Source: Paenibacillus sp. KS-LC4
Lineage (GTDB): Bacteria; Bacillota; Bacilli; Paenibacillales; Paenibacillaceae
Length of the DNA: 64,000 bases
Reading direction: 5' to 3'
NCBI RefSeq assembly: GCF_036894955.1
Contig: NZ_CP145905.1
Location: forward strand, 3,614,501-3,678,500
Position 1 is the first letter of the stretch. Each line of letters begins with the position of its first letter. The notes under the pieces are model-generated. The model ran no database searches, had not been told where the DNA came from, and saw nothing but the letters and a program-made list of their open reading frames with translations. Shown here piece by piece: positions 30,921 to 45,030 of the stretch. The position numbers and the translations under genes were made by a program.

Positions 30921-31962
30921 GGGTCAGCTCTCCTGTCGTTTGAATGAGGCCAAGCAGCTTTTGCTCGGCTAATCCGGAATCAATCATGTCCGCCGCGATT
31001 TTAACACCATCTGTCAAGCTCGCAGCAGCTCCGCCCACATAAATGCAAGCCCCTGCATTCGCAAGCACGATATCGCGATAGGCGCCGCGCTGCTCTCCGC
31101 TGAATATGCCGCGAATAATCGCCGCATTGGCTGCTGGATCGCCGCCGAGCACCTCGCTGATCGGGTAGCGGGTGAGGCCCAGCTCCTCCGGCGTAATTTC
31201 ATACGTGCGAACCTCGCCGCCTCGCAGCTCCGATACTCGAGTTGGTGCCGAAATGCTAATTTCGTCCAGCCCGTCGTTGCTGCTCACGACCATTGCACGT
31301 TTGACGCCAAGCTCTGCCAGCACCGAAGCGACGGTATCCGTTTTCTTAGCATCATACAAGCCGATTAGCTGGCGATCAGCACCAGCAGGATTCGTCAGCG
31401 GGCCCAGCATATTAAATATCGTCCGTATGCCCAGCTCTTTACGTGGAACAGAAGCATGGCGAAGCGATGGATGGTACAGCTGCGCAAACATGAAGCAGAT
31501 GCCGACCTGCTTCAGACATTCCTCCGCCTGCTCCGGCGTGAGCGTAATTTGCACGCCCAGCGCCTCCAACACATCAGCGCTGCCCGCTTTGCCTGACATC
31601 GCGCGGTTGCCATGCTTGGCTACGCGAATGCCGGCTGCCGCCGCAATAATCGCCGAGGACGTCGATATATTGAATTTATGAATACCGGAGCCGCCTGTAC
31701 CGCAAGTATCAAGCAGCCCTTCCTGCTCAGTCTGCACATGGCTCGAATGCGCCCGCATCGCCTGAGCAAAGCCTGTAATTTCGTCCTTCGTCTCGCCCTT
31801 CATACGCAGCGCCGTCACGACACCTGCAATTTGAACCGGCGTCGCATCGCCATTCATAATAATATCCATAACGGAGCGGGCTTCTTCGCGTGACAAATGC
31901 TCGCTGCCGATTAATTTAGTTAACGCGCTTTGCATCGTAATCGGTGTTAGACTGTTTGTCAT
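30907..31962 (-). CDS. trpD: Anthranilate phosphoribosyltransferase
   Basis: Transfers phosphoribosyl from PRPP to anthranilate. Contains the PRPP-binding DTCGTGGSG and NISTSSAI, KHGNRAMSGKAGSADVLEAL, and the metal-binding DGLDEIS. 351 aa. ATGA overlap with trpE. Confidence 0.97.
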   Translation of the reverse strand: MTNSLTPITMQSALTKLIGSEHLSREEARSVMDIIMNGDATPVQIAGVVTALRMKGETKDEITGFAQAMRAHSSHVQTEQEGLLDTCGTGGSGIHKFNISTSSAIIAAAAGIRVAKHGNRAMSGKAGSADVLEALGVQITLTPEQAEECLKQVGICFMFAQLYHPSLRHASVPRKELGIRTIFNMLGPLTNPAGADRQLIGLYDAKKTDTVASVLAELGVKRAMVVSSNDGLDEISISAPTRVSELRGGEVRTYEITPEELGLTRYPISEVLGGDPAANAAIIRGIFSGEQRGAYRDIVLANAGACIYVGGAAASLTDGVKIAADMIDSGLAEQKLLGLIQTTGELTHVFG

Positions 31963-33551
31963 TGTCCGAAGCCCTCCCCTGCTTTAATGTAATAATCGCT
32001 ATTAATGGCATTGAAGCTCTGAACACTTACGTCTCCAGGCTTGCCAAACAGCTGTTCAGCGGCCCGAATGGCCGTCAGCAGCGCCTTCGCTTTATTCACC
32101 GTTTCGGTATATTCGCTTTCCGGAACAGAATCCCAGACGATGCCTGCCCCGCTCTGCACGTAGGCTTTGCCATTTTTGAAAATGATCGTCCGAATCGTGA
32201 TGCAGGTGTCGAGCGTACCGCCGAAGCCTAAATAACCAATCGCTCCAGCGTAAGCGCCGCGAGCTTCATTTTCAAGCTCAGCGATAATTTCCATCGCCCG
32301 CAGCTTCGGTGCGCCAGACACGGTGCCGGCAGGAAGACAGGAGAGAAACGCATCGTAAAAATCCTTGTCCTCCCGCAGCTTGCCCGTCACATTCGAAACG
32401 ATATGCATAACGTGGGAGTAACGCTCGATTTCCATGAAGGAATCGCATTTCACCGAGCCGAACTCGGATACGCGGCCAATGTCGTTGCGACCTAAGTCAA
32501 CAAGCATCAGATGCTCCGCGCGCTCCTTCTCGTCTGCCAGCAAATCCTGCTCCAGCGCCAGATCCTCCTCCGGCGTTTTGCCGCGAGGGCGCGTTCCGGC
32601 GATTGGGCGGGTTTCCACCTTGCTGCCATCTACCTTAACGAGCGCCTCCGGCGATGTGCCGACGATTACCTCTTCGCCCATTTTCAAATAATACATGTAA
32701 GGTGAAGGGTTCATCGTGCGAAGCACGCGGTACACATGCAGCGGATCAACGTCGGTCTCAATGCTGAAGCGCTGGGACAGCACCACCTGGAAAATATCGC
32801 CTGCGCGAATGTACTCCTTCGCTTTGTCGACATTGGCGATGAACTGCTCCTTCGTCAAATTAGACTGCACCTCGCCAACCTCAGGCATCGTAGGCACGCC
32901 TGCCCCAATTGGAACGGGGATTTTCACCTGCTGCTGCAAGCGCTCTACCGTCGCTTCGATTTTGGCAACTGCTGCGTTATACGCCTCTTCAACGCCATAG
33001 GACTGAACAATGCCAGTCTGCGTCGTCTCCTTCGGCACATGCACATTGCCGATAATTTGCAGCTGCTGCTTGAAGTGGTCGAACACGATGACTTGATCGC
33101 AGAACATAAACTGCAAATCGTTCATTTCTAAATCATCAACGCGGTGAGCTGGAAGCTTCTCATAATATTGCAGCAAATCGTAGCCGAAAAATCCGATCGC
33201 CCCGCCCGTAAAAGGAGGAAGATGGGACATCGCCGGGCTGCGATAGTAACGAAGATGATCCTTCAGCAAGCTTAGCGGCTTATCGTCGAAGCTGATTTTT
33301 TCACCATTTTTCTCAAAAATCATTTTGCCGTTTTTGCCGTACAGCATCATAAACGGATCGGTCCCAATGAAAGAATAACGCGCCCATTTCACGCCGCCCT
33401 CTACACTTTCAAGCAGAAATGCATGCTTTTCCTTGGCAAAATGCTGAAATAGCCGAATCGGCGTCTCCGTATCCGCCATCATATAACGAACGATCGGAAT
33501 GAGATTGTATTCCTCCGAGAGCTTGACCACTTGCTGTAATTCACTATTCAT
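31959..33551 (-). CDS. trpE: Anthranilate synthase component I
   Basis: Converts chorismate and ammonia (from a glutaminase subunit encoded elsewhere) to anthranilate. C-terminal chorismate-binding domain with GTSPEALVKV, RPIAGTRPRGKTPEED, DLGRNDIGRV, LPAGTVSGAPK and GAIGYLGFGG. The N-terminal domain carries the tryptophan feedback site (LLESVEGG region). No glutaminase subunit (trpG/pabA) is in this operon, as in B. subtilis. ATG at 33551 chosen for the GGGGG site 8 nt upstream; about 530 aa. Controlled by TRAP attenuation (leader at 33599-33918). Confidence 0.96.
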   Translation of the reverse strand: MNSELQQVVKLSEEYNLIPIVRYMMADTETPIRLFQHFAKEKHAFLLESVEGGVKWARYSFIGTDPFMMLYGKNGKMIFEKNGEKISFDDKPLSLLKDHLRYYRSPAMSHLPPFTGGAIGFFGYDLLQYYEKLPAHRVDDLEMNDLQFMFCDQVIVFDHFKQQLQIIGNVHVPKETTQTGIVQSYGVEEAYNAAVAKIEATVERLQQQVKIPVPIGAGVPTMPEVGEVQSNLTKEQFIANVDKAKEYIRAGDIFQVVLSQRFSIETDVDPLHVYRVLRTMNPSPYMYYLKMGEEVIVGTSPEALVKVDGSKVETRPIAGTRPRGKTPEEDLALEQDLLADEKERAEHLMLVDLGRNDIGRVSEFGSVKCDSFMEIERYSHVMHIVSNVTGKLREDKDFYDAFLSCLPAGTVSGAPKLRAMEIIAELENEARGAYAGAIGYLGFGGTLDTCITIRTIIFKNGKAYVQSGAGIVWDSVPESEYTETVNKAKALLTAIRAAEQLFGKPGDVSVQSFNAINSDYYIKAGEGFGQ

Positions 33552-33598
33552 CGTTACGTCCCCCTTCTCGCTATGTGTAGACACATTCAAAATAAAAA

Positions 33599-33618
33599 GC
33601 CCCTGCCAAGGCAGGGGC
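33599..33618 (-). terminator. trpE: trp leader attenuator terminator
   Basis: GCCCCTGCC-TT-GGCAGGGGC followed by TTTTTATTTT on the minus strand, 48 bp before the trpE ATG. The left arm of this stem and the 16 nt before it (33619-33634) can instead pair with the TRAP-binding region, so the terminator is conditional. Confidence 0.88.
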
Positions 33619-33692
33619 GTTGATTTAAGATGAGGACAAAAAAGTAAAGGCTAGCCTGCAAATAAACCTATAGCAGCATCTTGTGCAAACGT

Positions 33693-33810
33693 TTGTACGC
33701 AAACGTAAACAGCTGTCGCCATCTCCTACGATGGATAGACTCTTCTTACGTTGAAATAGAAATCGACTATAAGCGCTAAACTTATACATCCTCTATTCCA
33801 TCATTACGCA
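33693..33810. repeat. Diverged two-hairpin repeat inside the trp leader
   Basis: AACGTAAACAGCTGTCGCC ... GGATAGACTCTTCTTACGTT then GAAATAGAAATCGACTATAAG ... follows the order of the dispersed repeat with several substitutions. A separate short hairpin ACGTTTG-CGTA-CAAACGT lies beside it. It falls in the loop between the two arms of the trp antiterminator. Confidence 0.45.
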
Positions 33811-33843
33811 CTCTGCTCTACAGTCATTATATTCGCAACTTGG

Positions 33844-33911
33844 CTATACTCGTCTCTGCTCTGCTCATCTAATTTCAACTAAACCTGCTCACTTGCTACT
33901 CAACTAGTCTC
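33844..33911 (-). promoter_or_regulatory. TRAP-binding site and antiterminator 5' arm in the trp leader
   Basis: On the minus-strand RNA there are eleven GAG/UAG triplets starting (from 5') at 33911, 33906, 33901, 33890, 33881, 33871, 33866, 33861, 33856, 33851 and 33846. The last six and first three have the exact 2-nt spacers TRAP prefers. The segment at 33864-33879 pairs at 13 of 16 positions with 33619-33634, and GCAGG (33884-33888) with CCUGC of the terminator arm (33611-33615). Bound TRAP would therefore block the antiterminator and allow termination. Confidence 0.85.
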
Positions 33912-33924
33912 ATTTACTTCATCC

Positions 33925-33954
33925 AATATACAACATCTTGTGCCTGATCGTCAA
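33925..33954 (-). promoter_or_regulatory. trp operon promoter
   Basis: TTGACG (33949-33954), 18-nt spacer and TATATT (33925-33930) on the minus strand, just past the aroH stop. The predicted start near 33918 places the first TRAP triplet at about +8 and gives a leader of about 365 nt. The 408-bp aroH-trpE gap is entirely occupied by this leader. Confidence 0.75.
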
Positions 33955-33959
33955 TTAGA

Positions 33960-34328
33960 TTAGGATTGCGTTAAATCTGGACGAAGCACCTGGGCTCCTC
34001 CCAAGTACACATGCTTAATTTCGGCTTGCGTTTTATCCGTATTCACGGTGACCATAAGCCTTATACAGCGCGCAAGGCTCCCCTTGACAGGCACCTCCAG
34101 CGCGCACATAAGGGGAACTAGCTCCCAGCCGCTCATTTGGCGAATAGCCAATGCAGGGAACGCATCATCCAAATCATTCGTCACTGTAATAAATACGCTG
34201 CAAATATCATCAGGCTGAACGTCATTGTCTGCGACAATCGCATGCAGCATTTCTAGTGTTGCTTTTAAAATAGGCTCTTTCTCGTTTGTATCGACGGTAA
34301 TTGCCCCGCGAATTCCCCTAACGCTCAT
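33960..34328 (-). CDS. aroH: Chorismate mutase, AroH class
   Basis: Rearranges chorismate to prephenate at the branch to phenylalanine and tyrosine. 122 aa, the monofunctional trimeric class. MSVRGIRGAITVDTNE at the start holds the active-site arginine and C-terminal IKHVYLGGAQVLRPDL the second arginine region. Starts 1 bp after the aroB stop. Confidence 0.96.
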   Translation of the reverse strand: MSVRGIRGAITVDTNEKEPILKATLEMLHAIVADNDVQPDDICSVFITVTNDLDDAFPALAIRQMSGWELVPLMCALEVPVKGSLARCIRLMVTVNTDKTQAEIKHVYLGGAQVLRPDLTQS

Positions 34329-44681: not shown

Positions 44682-44903
44682 CTATTGATCGGTCTCTATT
44701 TGGCCATGCTTCGTCATGATGACCGCTTTTCCCCGCACCTTAATGGCTGAAGTATGGTCTGTGAACTGCACGATCAGCACCTCGTTGCGGTCCAGCTTTT
44801 CGGTGTGATGAAACTTCGTATCTTGTCCGCGGGTCAGTCCAATAACCTGTACCCCTTGATCCTTCGCCTTAATGACGATAAAATCGCTGTTTGTCGGCTC
44901 CAT
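44682..44903 (-). CDS. mtrB: trp RNA-binding attenuation protein TRAP
   Basis: 11-subunit ring protein that, when loaded with tryptophan, binds a series of GAG/UAG triplets and represses trp genes by attenuation. 73 aa, matching B. subtilis TRAP (75 aa) along its length: [45 protein letters not shown]. The lysines and arginine known to contact RNA in TRAP lie in EKLD and IKVRG. ATG at 44903 preceded by AAGGGGG. Its target site is at 33844-33911. No folE/mtrA precedes it, unlike in B. subtilis. Confidence 0.95.
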
Positions 44904-44930
44904 TTTCCATCCCCCTTGTCGTTCCTCTCT

Positions 44931-44978
44931 GATAGACAGGTCGTTTATAAGTGTCACACTTATAAACGCATGTCTATC
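44931..44978. promoter_or_regulatory. 48-bp nested palindrome upstream of mtrB
   Basis: Inner perfect 27-bp palindrome CGTTTATAAGTGT-C-ACACTTATAAACG (44942-44968) inside an outer GATAGACA / TGTCTATC pair (44931-44938, 44971-44978). Lies between the HU terminator and the mtrB ribosome-binding site, where the mtrB promoter would be expected; no standard -35/-10 pair is clear. Confidence 0.8.
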
Positions 44979-44984
44979 TAAAAA

Positions 44985-45010
44985 GCGCCCGAACGCTAAC
45001 GTCCGGACGC
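44985..45010 (-). terminator. HU gene terminator
   Basis: Minus-strand GCGTCCGGACG-TTAG-CGTTCGGGCGC followed by TTTTT, 20 bp after the HU stop. Confidence 0.8.
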
Positions 45011-45030
45011 CGATTTAACGAATGCTGCTA

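Follow-up and report, generated by a model that had tools for sequence, protein, structure and literature searches.

The stretch of DNA analysed here, referred to as the window, comprises 64,000 nucleotides of the genome of Paenibacillus sp. KS-LC4. The trp leader lies on its minus strand, between the stop codon of aroH (33960) and the start codon of trpE (33551). AroH is 97% identical to that of Paenibacillus algorifonticola, which places the genome close to that species. Downstream of mtrB follow genes for a heptaprenyl diphosphate synthase subunit, cheR, chorismate synthase and dehydroquinate synthase, and then aroH and trpE. In the direction of transcription, the features relevant to the control of the operon are:

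44682–44903, minus strand: mtrB, encoding TRAP (73 aa), assigned from Pfam, NCBIfam and PDB matches and a residue pattern
33960–34328, minus strand: aroH, chorismate mutase (Pfam CM_1), just upstream of the leader
33925–33954, minus strand: promoter-like TTGACG-18-TATATT just past the aroH stop codon, found by a hexamer pair search
33844–33911, minus strand: putative TRAP binding site of 12 (G/U)AG triplets, with 2-nt-spaced runs of three and six, defined by triplet count and shuffles
33864–33888, minus strand: 5′ strand of the antiterminator inside the TRAP site (33888–33884, 33879–33875 and 33870–33864), from the predicted fold and a swap test
33635–33863, minus strand: spacer of 229 nt with predicted nested helices extending the antiterminator, from the predicted fold and, in relatives, RNAalifold
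33611–33634, minus strand: 3′ strand of the antiterminator, made up of the pre-terminator segment 33634–33619 and terminator left-arm bases 33615–33611, from the predicted fold and the swap test
33599–33618, minus strand: intrinsic terminator of 8 bp with a CTTG loop and a T-rich tail from 33598 (−16.3 kcal/mol)
33560–33566, minus strand: probable trpE Shine-Dalgarno sequence AAGGGGG, read from the sequence
31959–33551, minus strand: trpE, anthranilate synthase component I (530 aa), assigned by Pfam

A first-pass annotation of this DNA had described a trp leader with a promoter, eleven triplets, nine of them in runs with 2-nt spacers, and a terminator ahead of trpE, and this anatomy is borne out. 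The promoter-like hexamer pair is present at 33954–33925 and is weak when taken alone, with one pair found versus 1.1 expected in shuffles; in the order, 73 of 92 leaders carry a comparable pair ahead of the TRAP site. The triplet number depends on the counting, as eleven is obtained if the TAG abutting GAG at 33898–33896 is omitted, whereas 12 non-overlapping (G/T)AG triplets were counted within 33840–33914; the nine in 2-nt-spaced runs (3 + 6) are read directly off the sequence. None of 2000 dinucleotide shuffles of the leader produced a run of at least six triplets, and two of 2000 matched the triplet density. The terminator stem contains seven GC pairs out of eight and is followed by the tail TTTTTATTTT. 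Around 11 (G/U)AG triplets with 2–3-nt spacers in a trp leader and a terminator before trpE, the hallmarks of a TRAP leader, are thus both found here. The B. subtilis trp leader, as set out in the available part of PMC3913778, is built alike, with TRAP, about 11 (G/U)AG triplets, and an antiterminator and terminator before trpE.

The pairing between the arms of the proposed antiterminator is exactly as previously described: 33879–33864 pairs with 33634–33619 at 13 of 16 positions and 33888–33884 with 33615–33611 at five of five, and the separation given as about 230 nt amounts to 229 nt between the strands. The idea that antiterminator and termination are mutually exclusive needs to be narrowed, since it applies to the five base pairs at 33615–33611, but not to the 13-pair helix, which abuts the terminator stem without overlapping it. 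As judged by prediction and co-variation, the leader contains an antiterminator that uses the TRAP site and overlaps the terminator by 5 bp. In B. subtilis, the overlap between antiterminator and terminator is similarly short (4 nt).

Absence of conservation or co-variation of this long-range pairing had been named as the observation that would refute the proposal; instead, the two arms are matched to each other across divergent leaders. In a partner-swap test on 41 leaders, chosen from the 92 for a similarity below 75% over the 24 nt preceding the terminator, in silico hybridisation was compared between every TRAP site and the pre-terminator segments of its own and of all other leaders, row and column means being removed. 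Native partners had a mean advantage of 1.77 kcal/mol (z −4.9), which 0 of 20,000 permutations equalled; for the 27 of these leaders numbered up to L098, which all belong to one family, three of 20,000 permutations reached the observed advantage. Control segments from −54 upstream and one past the terminator gave z values of −0.9 to 0.0, and the overlapping segments −34 to −10 and −44 to −20 were weaker yet not null (z −2.7 and −2.5). The terminator left arm alone showed no own-partner preference among the 41 leaders (z 0.2), as expected of a piece that hardly varies. An earlier duplex test against dinucleotide-shuffled partners was less telling: two of 100 shuffles were as good as the actual partner in the window and up to 79 of 100 in others among the leaders listed, many single leaders being unremarkable. 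That test is weak because both strands are of biased composition, and the swap test was used in its place. RNAalifold, with the terminator included, drew the pre-terminator helix beside a formed terminator in two of three groups, namely in four close relatives (group I) and in six leaders of different sequence (group III); it did not draw the antiterminator in the 14 sequences of group II.

The leader could also form a second long-range contact, in which its 5′ end (33920–33913) pairs with 33648–33641, just before the 3′ strand of the antiterminator; this pairing crosses the antiterminator. In 37 leaders of relatives, the 5′ end showed a preference for its own −44 to −14 segment that is no more than suggestive (z −2.5 in the best of seven windows; 167 of 20,000 permutations).

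Folded up to the terminator loop (33607–33914), the window leader reaches −92 kcal/mol (z −3.39), a stability matched by none of 100 shuffles, and the antiterminator is present in both the MFE and the centroid structure; among the 41 divergent leaders, a fold z below −2 was seen in only 21. For the window leader before the right arm of the terminator exists, the mean probability of pairing with the TRAP site is 0.72 for the 20 nt preceding the terminator and 0.62 for the left arm, the medians over 92 leaders being 0.66 and 0.71. In the complete window leader at equilibrium, the terminator has a probability of 1.00 whether the TRAP site is free or masked, and it reaches at least 0.8 with a free site in 82 of the 92 complete leaders, for which thermodynamics alone would not yield a switch. 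In the other ten it falls below 0.8 with the site free, as it does in none of the 92 with the site masked, and these ten behave, in the folding model, as an equilibrium switch would need. Since the terminator wins at equilibrium in the window with or without TRAP, the switch there must be kinetic, and so, as far as the predicted folds go, has to be the exclusion of the terminator by the antiterminator.

The TRAP site itself is about half paired throughout, its predicted unpaired fraction passing from 0.52 to 0.42 in the window, and from 0.51 to 0.41 over the 41 leaders, as the leader grows. Folds of growing length gave no support to the idea of a delay line, with the spacer holding the TRAP site open for as long as it takes transcription to reach the 3′ strand. 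In nine of the 41 leaders, the window included (0.43 vs 0.51), pairing of the site with the final 70 nt was no higher than in a tail-shuffled control.

The spacer of the window is predicted to fold into a rod rather than an open loop. GAG and UAGCC elements of the TRAP site pair with the pyrimidine-rich pre-terminator strand, and the rod is continued by UGCGAAUA/UAUUUGCA, CUGUAG/CUAUAG and further predicted helices, together with UAGCC/GGCUA. Spacer sequences differ strongly between the RNAalifold groups.

The wide separation of TRAP site and terminator, previously noted as a departure from the compact B. subtilis leader, is real (230 nt by the densest 11-triplet window) and characterises the order rather than this genome in particular. 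The survey started from 96 aroH loci (L031–L126), two of which (L103 and L122) have no trpE in reach; of the resulting 94 leaders, L098 and L120 have only nine triplets and were set aside, leaving 92 from 91 genomes (L062 and L086 share a genome). Outside the order, trpE was found in 11 of 20 stretches, and site and terminator could be measured in 10. By a 9-triplet window, the gap spans 92–448 nt in the 92 order leaders (median 153.5) as against 10–64 nt in the 10 others; the two ranges do not overlap, with the terminators outside the order called by a slightly looser rule (two mismatches, three T) that also required a gap below 250 nt. The compact arrangement of the B. subtilis type, with the TRAP site within some tens of nucleotides of the terminator, is not the one found in the window. 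Terminator strength shows no clear difference, with a median of −15.3 kcal/mol in the order and values of −11.4 to −16.5 kcal/mol outside it. In leaders of the B. subtilis type, TRAP binding goes with a trpE Shine-Dalgarno sequence concealed in a hairpin. This sequence has a local pairing probability of 0.57 in the window (scored on the overlapping AGAAGG) and a median of 0.66 in the 92 order leaders versus 0.82 in 11 leaders outside; in these folding models, the less hidden Shine-Dalgarno sequence hints at the loss of a translational layer of control in the order.

Some leaders of the order are also extended on the other side of the terminator, with about 240–295 nt between terminator and trpE in L055, L056, L057, L111 and others, compared with 47 in the window. 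By eye, this stretch is alike in L055 and L057, and L126 carries three near-identical copies of about 70 nt with inverted ends in it, perhaps a small mobile element.

The putative regulator is encoded nearby. The gene at 44682–44903, put forward earlier as that of TRAP, scores above the curated cut-offs of both family models, with 131 bits against Pfam PF02081 TrpBP (cut-off 21.3, E 1.3e-38) and 138 bits against the NCBIfam MtrB equivalog NF009724 (cut-off 117), and its product matches 15 distinct TRAP sequences in the PDB. TRAP was found in 59 of the 60 genomes in the relatives set. The presence of mtrB and the trp leader in one window is correct as to location and carries no special meaning: of 20 genomes examined outside the order, 14 have aroH no more than about 14 kb downstream of mtrB and 11 have trpE in that range, so that the neighbourhood is ordinary synteny. 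Directly upstream of mtrB stands a gene for HU, and the interval 44904–45030 has no listed frame of at least 70 aa wholly within it. B. subtilis has folE (mtrA) next to mtrB at the place where HU stands here.

The available text of PMC3184956 ties K and T at two positions to 12-mers, names Paenibacillus TRAP as a likely 12-mer and describes the B. halodurans leader with 19 NAG triplets, compared with 12 in the window. K and T occupy both positions in the alignment of the window TRAP and of most order relatives read. A 12-subunit ring like that of B. halodurans TRAP is therefore probable in the order, its size here being read from these residues. Anti-TRAP, which provides the link to uncharged tRNA in B. 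subtilis, was found in none of the 60 genomes; the same search did detect it in B. subtilis, and also gave matches in three control genomes where TRAP had not been found.

Taken together, the leader is very probably the attenuator of the trp operon, operating by the ordinary TRAP mechanism with a long-range antiterminator. This reading is founded on the leader anatomy, its conservation, the co-variation of the arms, the predicted rod and the presence of a TRAP gene; from these we infer TRAP binding, tryptophan dependence and the kinetic success of the antiterminator. When tryptophan is plentiful, tryptophan-bound TRAP (MtrB) would wrap the 12-triplet site of the nascent leader and thereby block the antiterminator strand, allowing the 8-bp terminator to form before trpE. 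Under tryptophan scarcity, the unoccupied site would pair across about 230 nt with the pyrimidine-rich pre-terminator segment and part of the terminator left arm, and RNA polymerase would read into trpE and the genes behind it. The antiterminator would win kinetically, by forming before the right arm of the terminator is made, with five base pairs opposing the terminator. By comparison with leaders outside the order, the TRAP mechanism appears to have been kept while the layout differs from the compact one. The leader would be a clear case of an antiterminator acting across a structured spacer of hundreds of bases.

Alternative explanations differ in how much of this they would replace. B. subtilis TRAP, according to the accessible portion of PMC3913778, has two routes to ending transcription, one through release of the terminator and the other through direct action on RNA polymerase, and it can terminate without the attenuator hairpin where an A+U-rich region directly follows its site. 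It is conceivable that TRAP in the order terminates mainly by acting on RNA polymerase beside its site, with the long-range antiterminator mattering little, but we consider this very improbable: the terminator lies 92–448 nt beyond the site in 92 leaders, a spacing that makes a direct role at the terminator less likely, and such a mechanism does not need the observed co-variation of the pre-terminator segment with the site. The same spacing means that the RNA-refolding role of TRAP could be tested nearly alone. It is likewise improbable that TRAP shares control of the circuit with another regulator carried by the spacer, for instance a T box or a leader peptide. In favour of this are the length of the spacer and a frame of 54 codons within it (33789–33625, minus strand), and with anti-TRAP undetected another tRNA(Trp) signal could be wanted; however, no Rfam family reached its gathering score, none of seven sub-threshold matches (E up to 5) is a T box, and the frame has no Trp codon and shifts after about 27–32 codons in all three close relatives, for which reason it was rejected as a leader peptide.

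The remaining alternative concerns the spacer only and is compatible with the attenuator reading. The spacer may be neutral, an ancestral insertion in the order that has been tolerated since it is folded into a rod, and we regard this as possible, if somewhat doubtful. Strong sequence variation between groups, gaps anywhere from 92 to 448 nt and the co-variation of the arms would all suit a neutral spacer; on the other hand, not one of the 92 leaders has a gap shorter than 92 nt, which hints at selection to keep it.

Unlike the B. subtilis trp system, that of the order thus combines a gap of 92–448 nt with the lack of a detectable anti-TRAP (0 of 60) and a trpE Shine-Dalgarno sequence predicted to be less hidden. 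Attenuation by an antiterminator may not be the only use of TRAP in these bacteria. When this genome was searched for six spaced triplets with no mismatch, the trp leader came up together with a microsatellite-like place and one further site, outside the window (G000:C1:4080279–4080311, minus strand), in the ribosome-binding region of a gene for a 233-aa class I SAM methyltransferase:

L166:1480–1512, minus strand: TRAP-like triplet run upstream of the methyltransferase gene (L166:775–1476), from the genome triplet scan

Upstream of the methyltransferase gene, runs of at least five triplets with 2–3-nt spacing occur in 30 of 33 genus genomes examined, in 28 of 40 genomes of other family genera with a close copy, in six of 12 for distant family members of the protein and in 13 of 20 outside the family, whereas seven of 2900 control shuffles reached this level. 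The regions scored come from 33 of 50 genus genomes with the gene (L177 was left out for its short flank), 52 of 117 in other family genera and 20 of 57 outside the family. In many cases GAGGAGAG closes the run immediately ahead of the start codon, and the Shine-Dalgarno sequence lies inside the run. A backwards-pattern control of the genome scans was uninformative, with 23 matches versus 21 for the pattern itself at two mismatches in this genome, because GAG tracts match the reversed pattern too; the upstream regions of pabA and aroH were used instead. No TRAP-like run was seen upstream of pabA in the 29 genus genomes examined (loci L201–L230, none above two triplets; the gene occurs in 51 genomes, of which 30 were fetched and L221 left out), nor upstream of aroH in 30, one of which has four triplets.

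In B. subtilis, trpG (pabA), trpP and ycbK have TRAP sites in their translation start regions, as described in the available part of PMC11255114. The methyltransferase run resembles these sites in spanning the translation start region, and differs in its target, a class I SAM methyltransferase; the absence of a TRAP-like pabA run in 29 of 29 genus genomes examined likewise departs from B. subtilis, where pabA is a known TRAP target. On the strength of the triplet pattern, the methyltransferase is a possible additional target of TRAP. The enzyme has a confidently predicted structure (mean pLDDT 90.7) and no sequence relative in the PDB at E 0.01; a fold search returned generic class I (small-molecule) methyltransferases of weak likeness, with TM scores up to 0.52 among the best 50 listed.

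On balance, it seems rather likely that the order has rewired TRAP, through a trp antiterminator built as a long-range rod, a TRAP ring probably of 12 subunits, an undetected anti-TRAP, the lack of a pabA run in the genus and a new core target in the methyltransferase; tryptophan would then turn off a methylation step that has yet to be connected with the metabolism of this amino acid. If real, the methyltransferase site would add a target to the textbook regulon and give an initial indication of what this uncharacterised family of enzymes does. Among the matches listed by a search of the open literature, which says little on subscription journals, there was no description of a Paenibacillus TRAP attenuation leader or of a methyltransferase target. 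One further run was seen in a single genome (G012), where seven spaced triplets (L236:5625–5657) lie about 100 nt upstream of a gene for a 725-aa protein with a TrpG-type domain, perhaps a TrpE–TrpG fusion.
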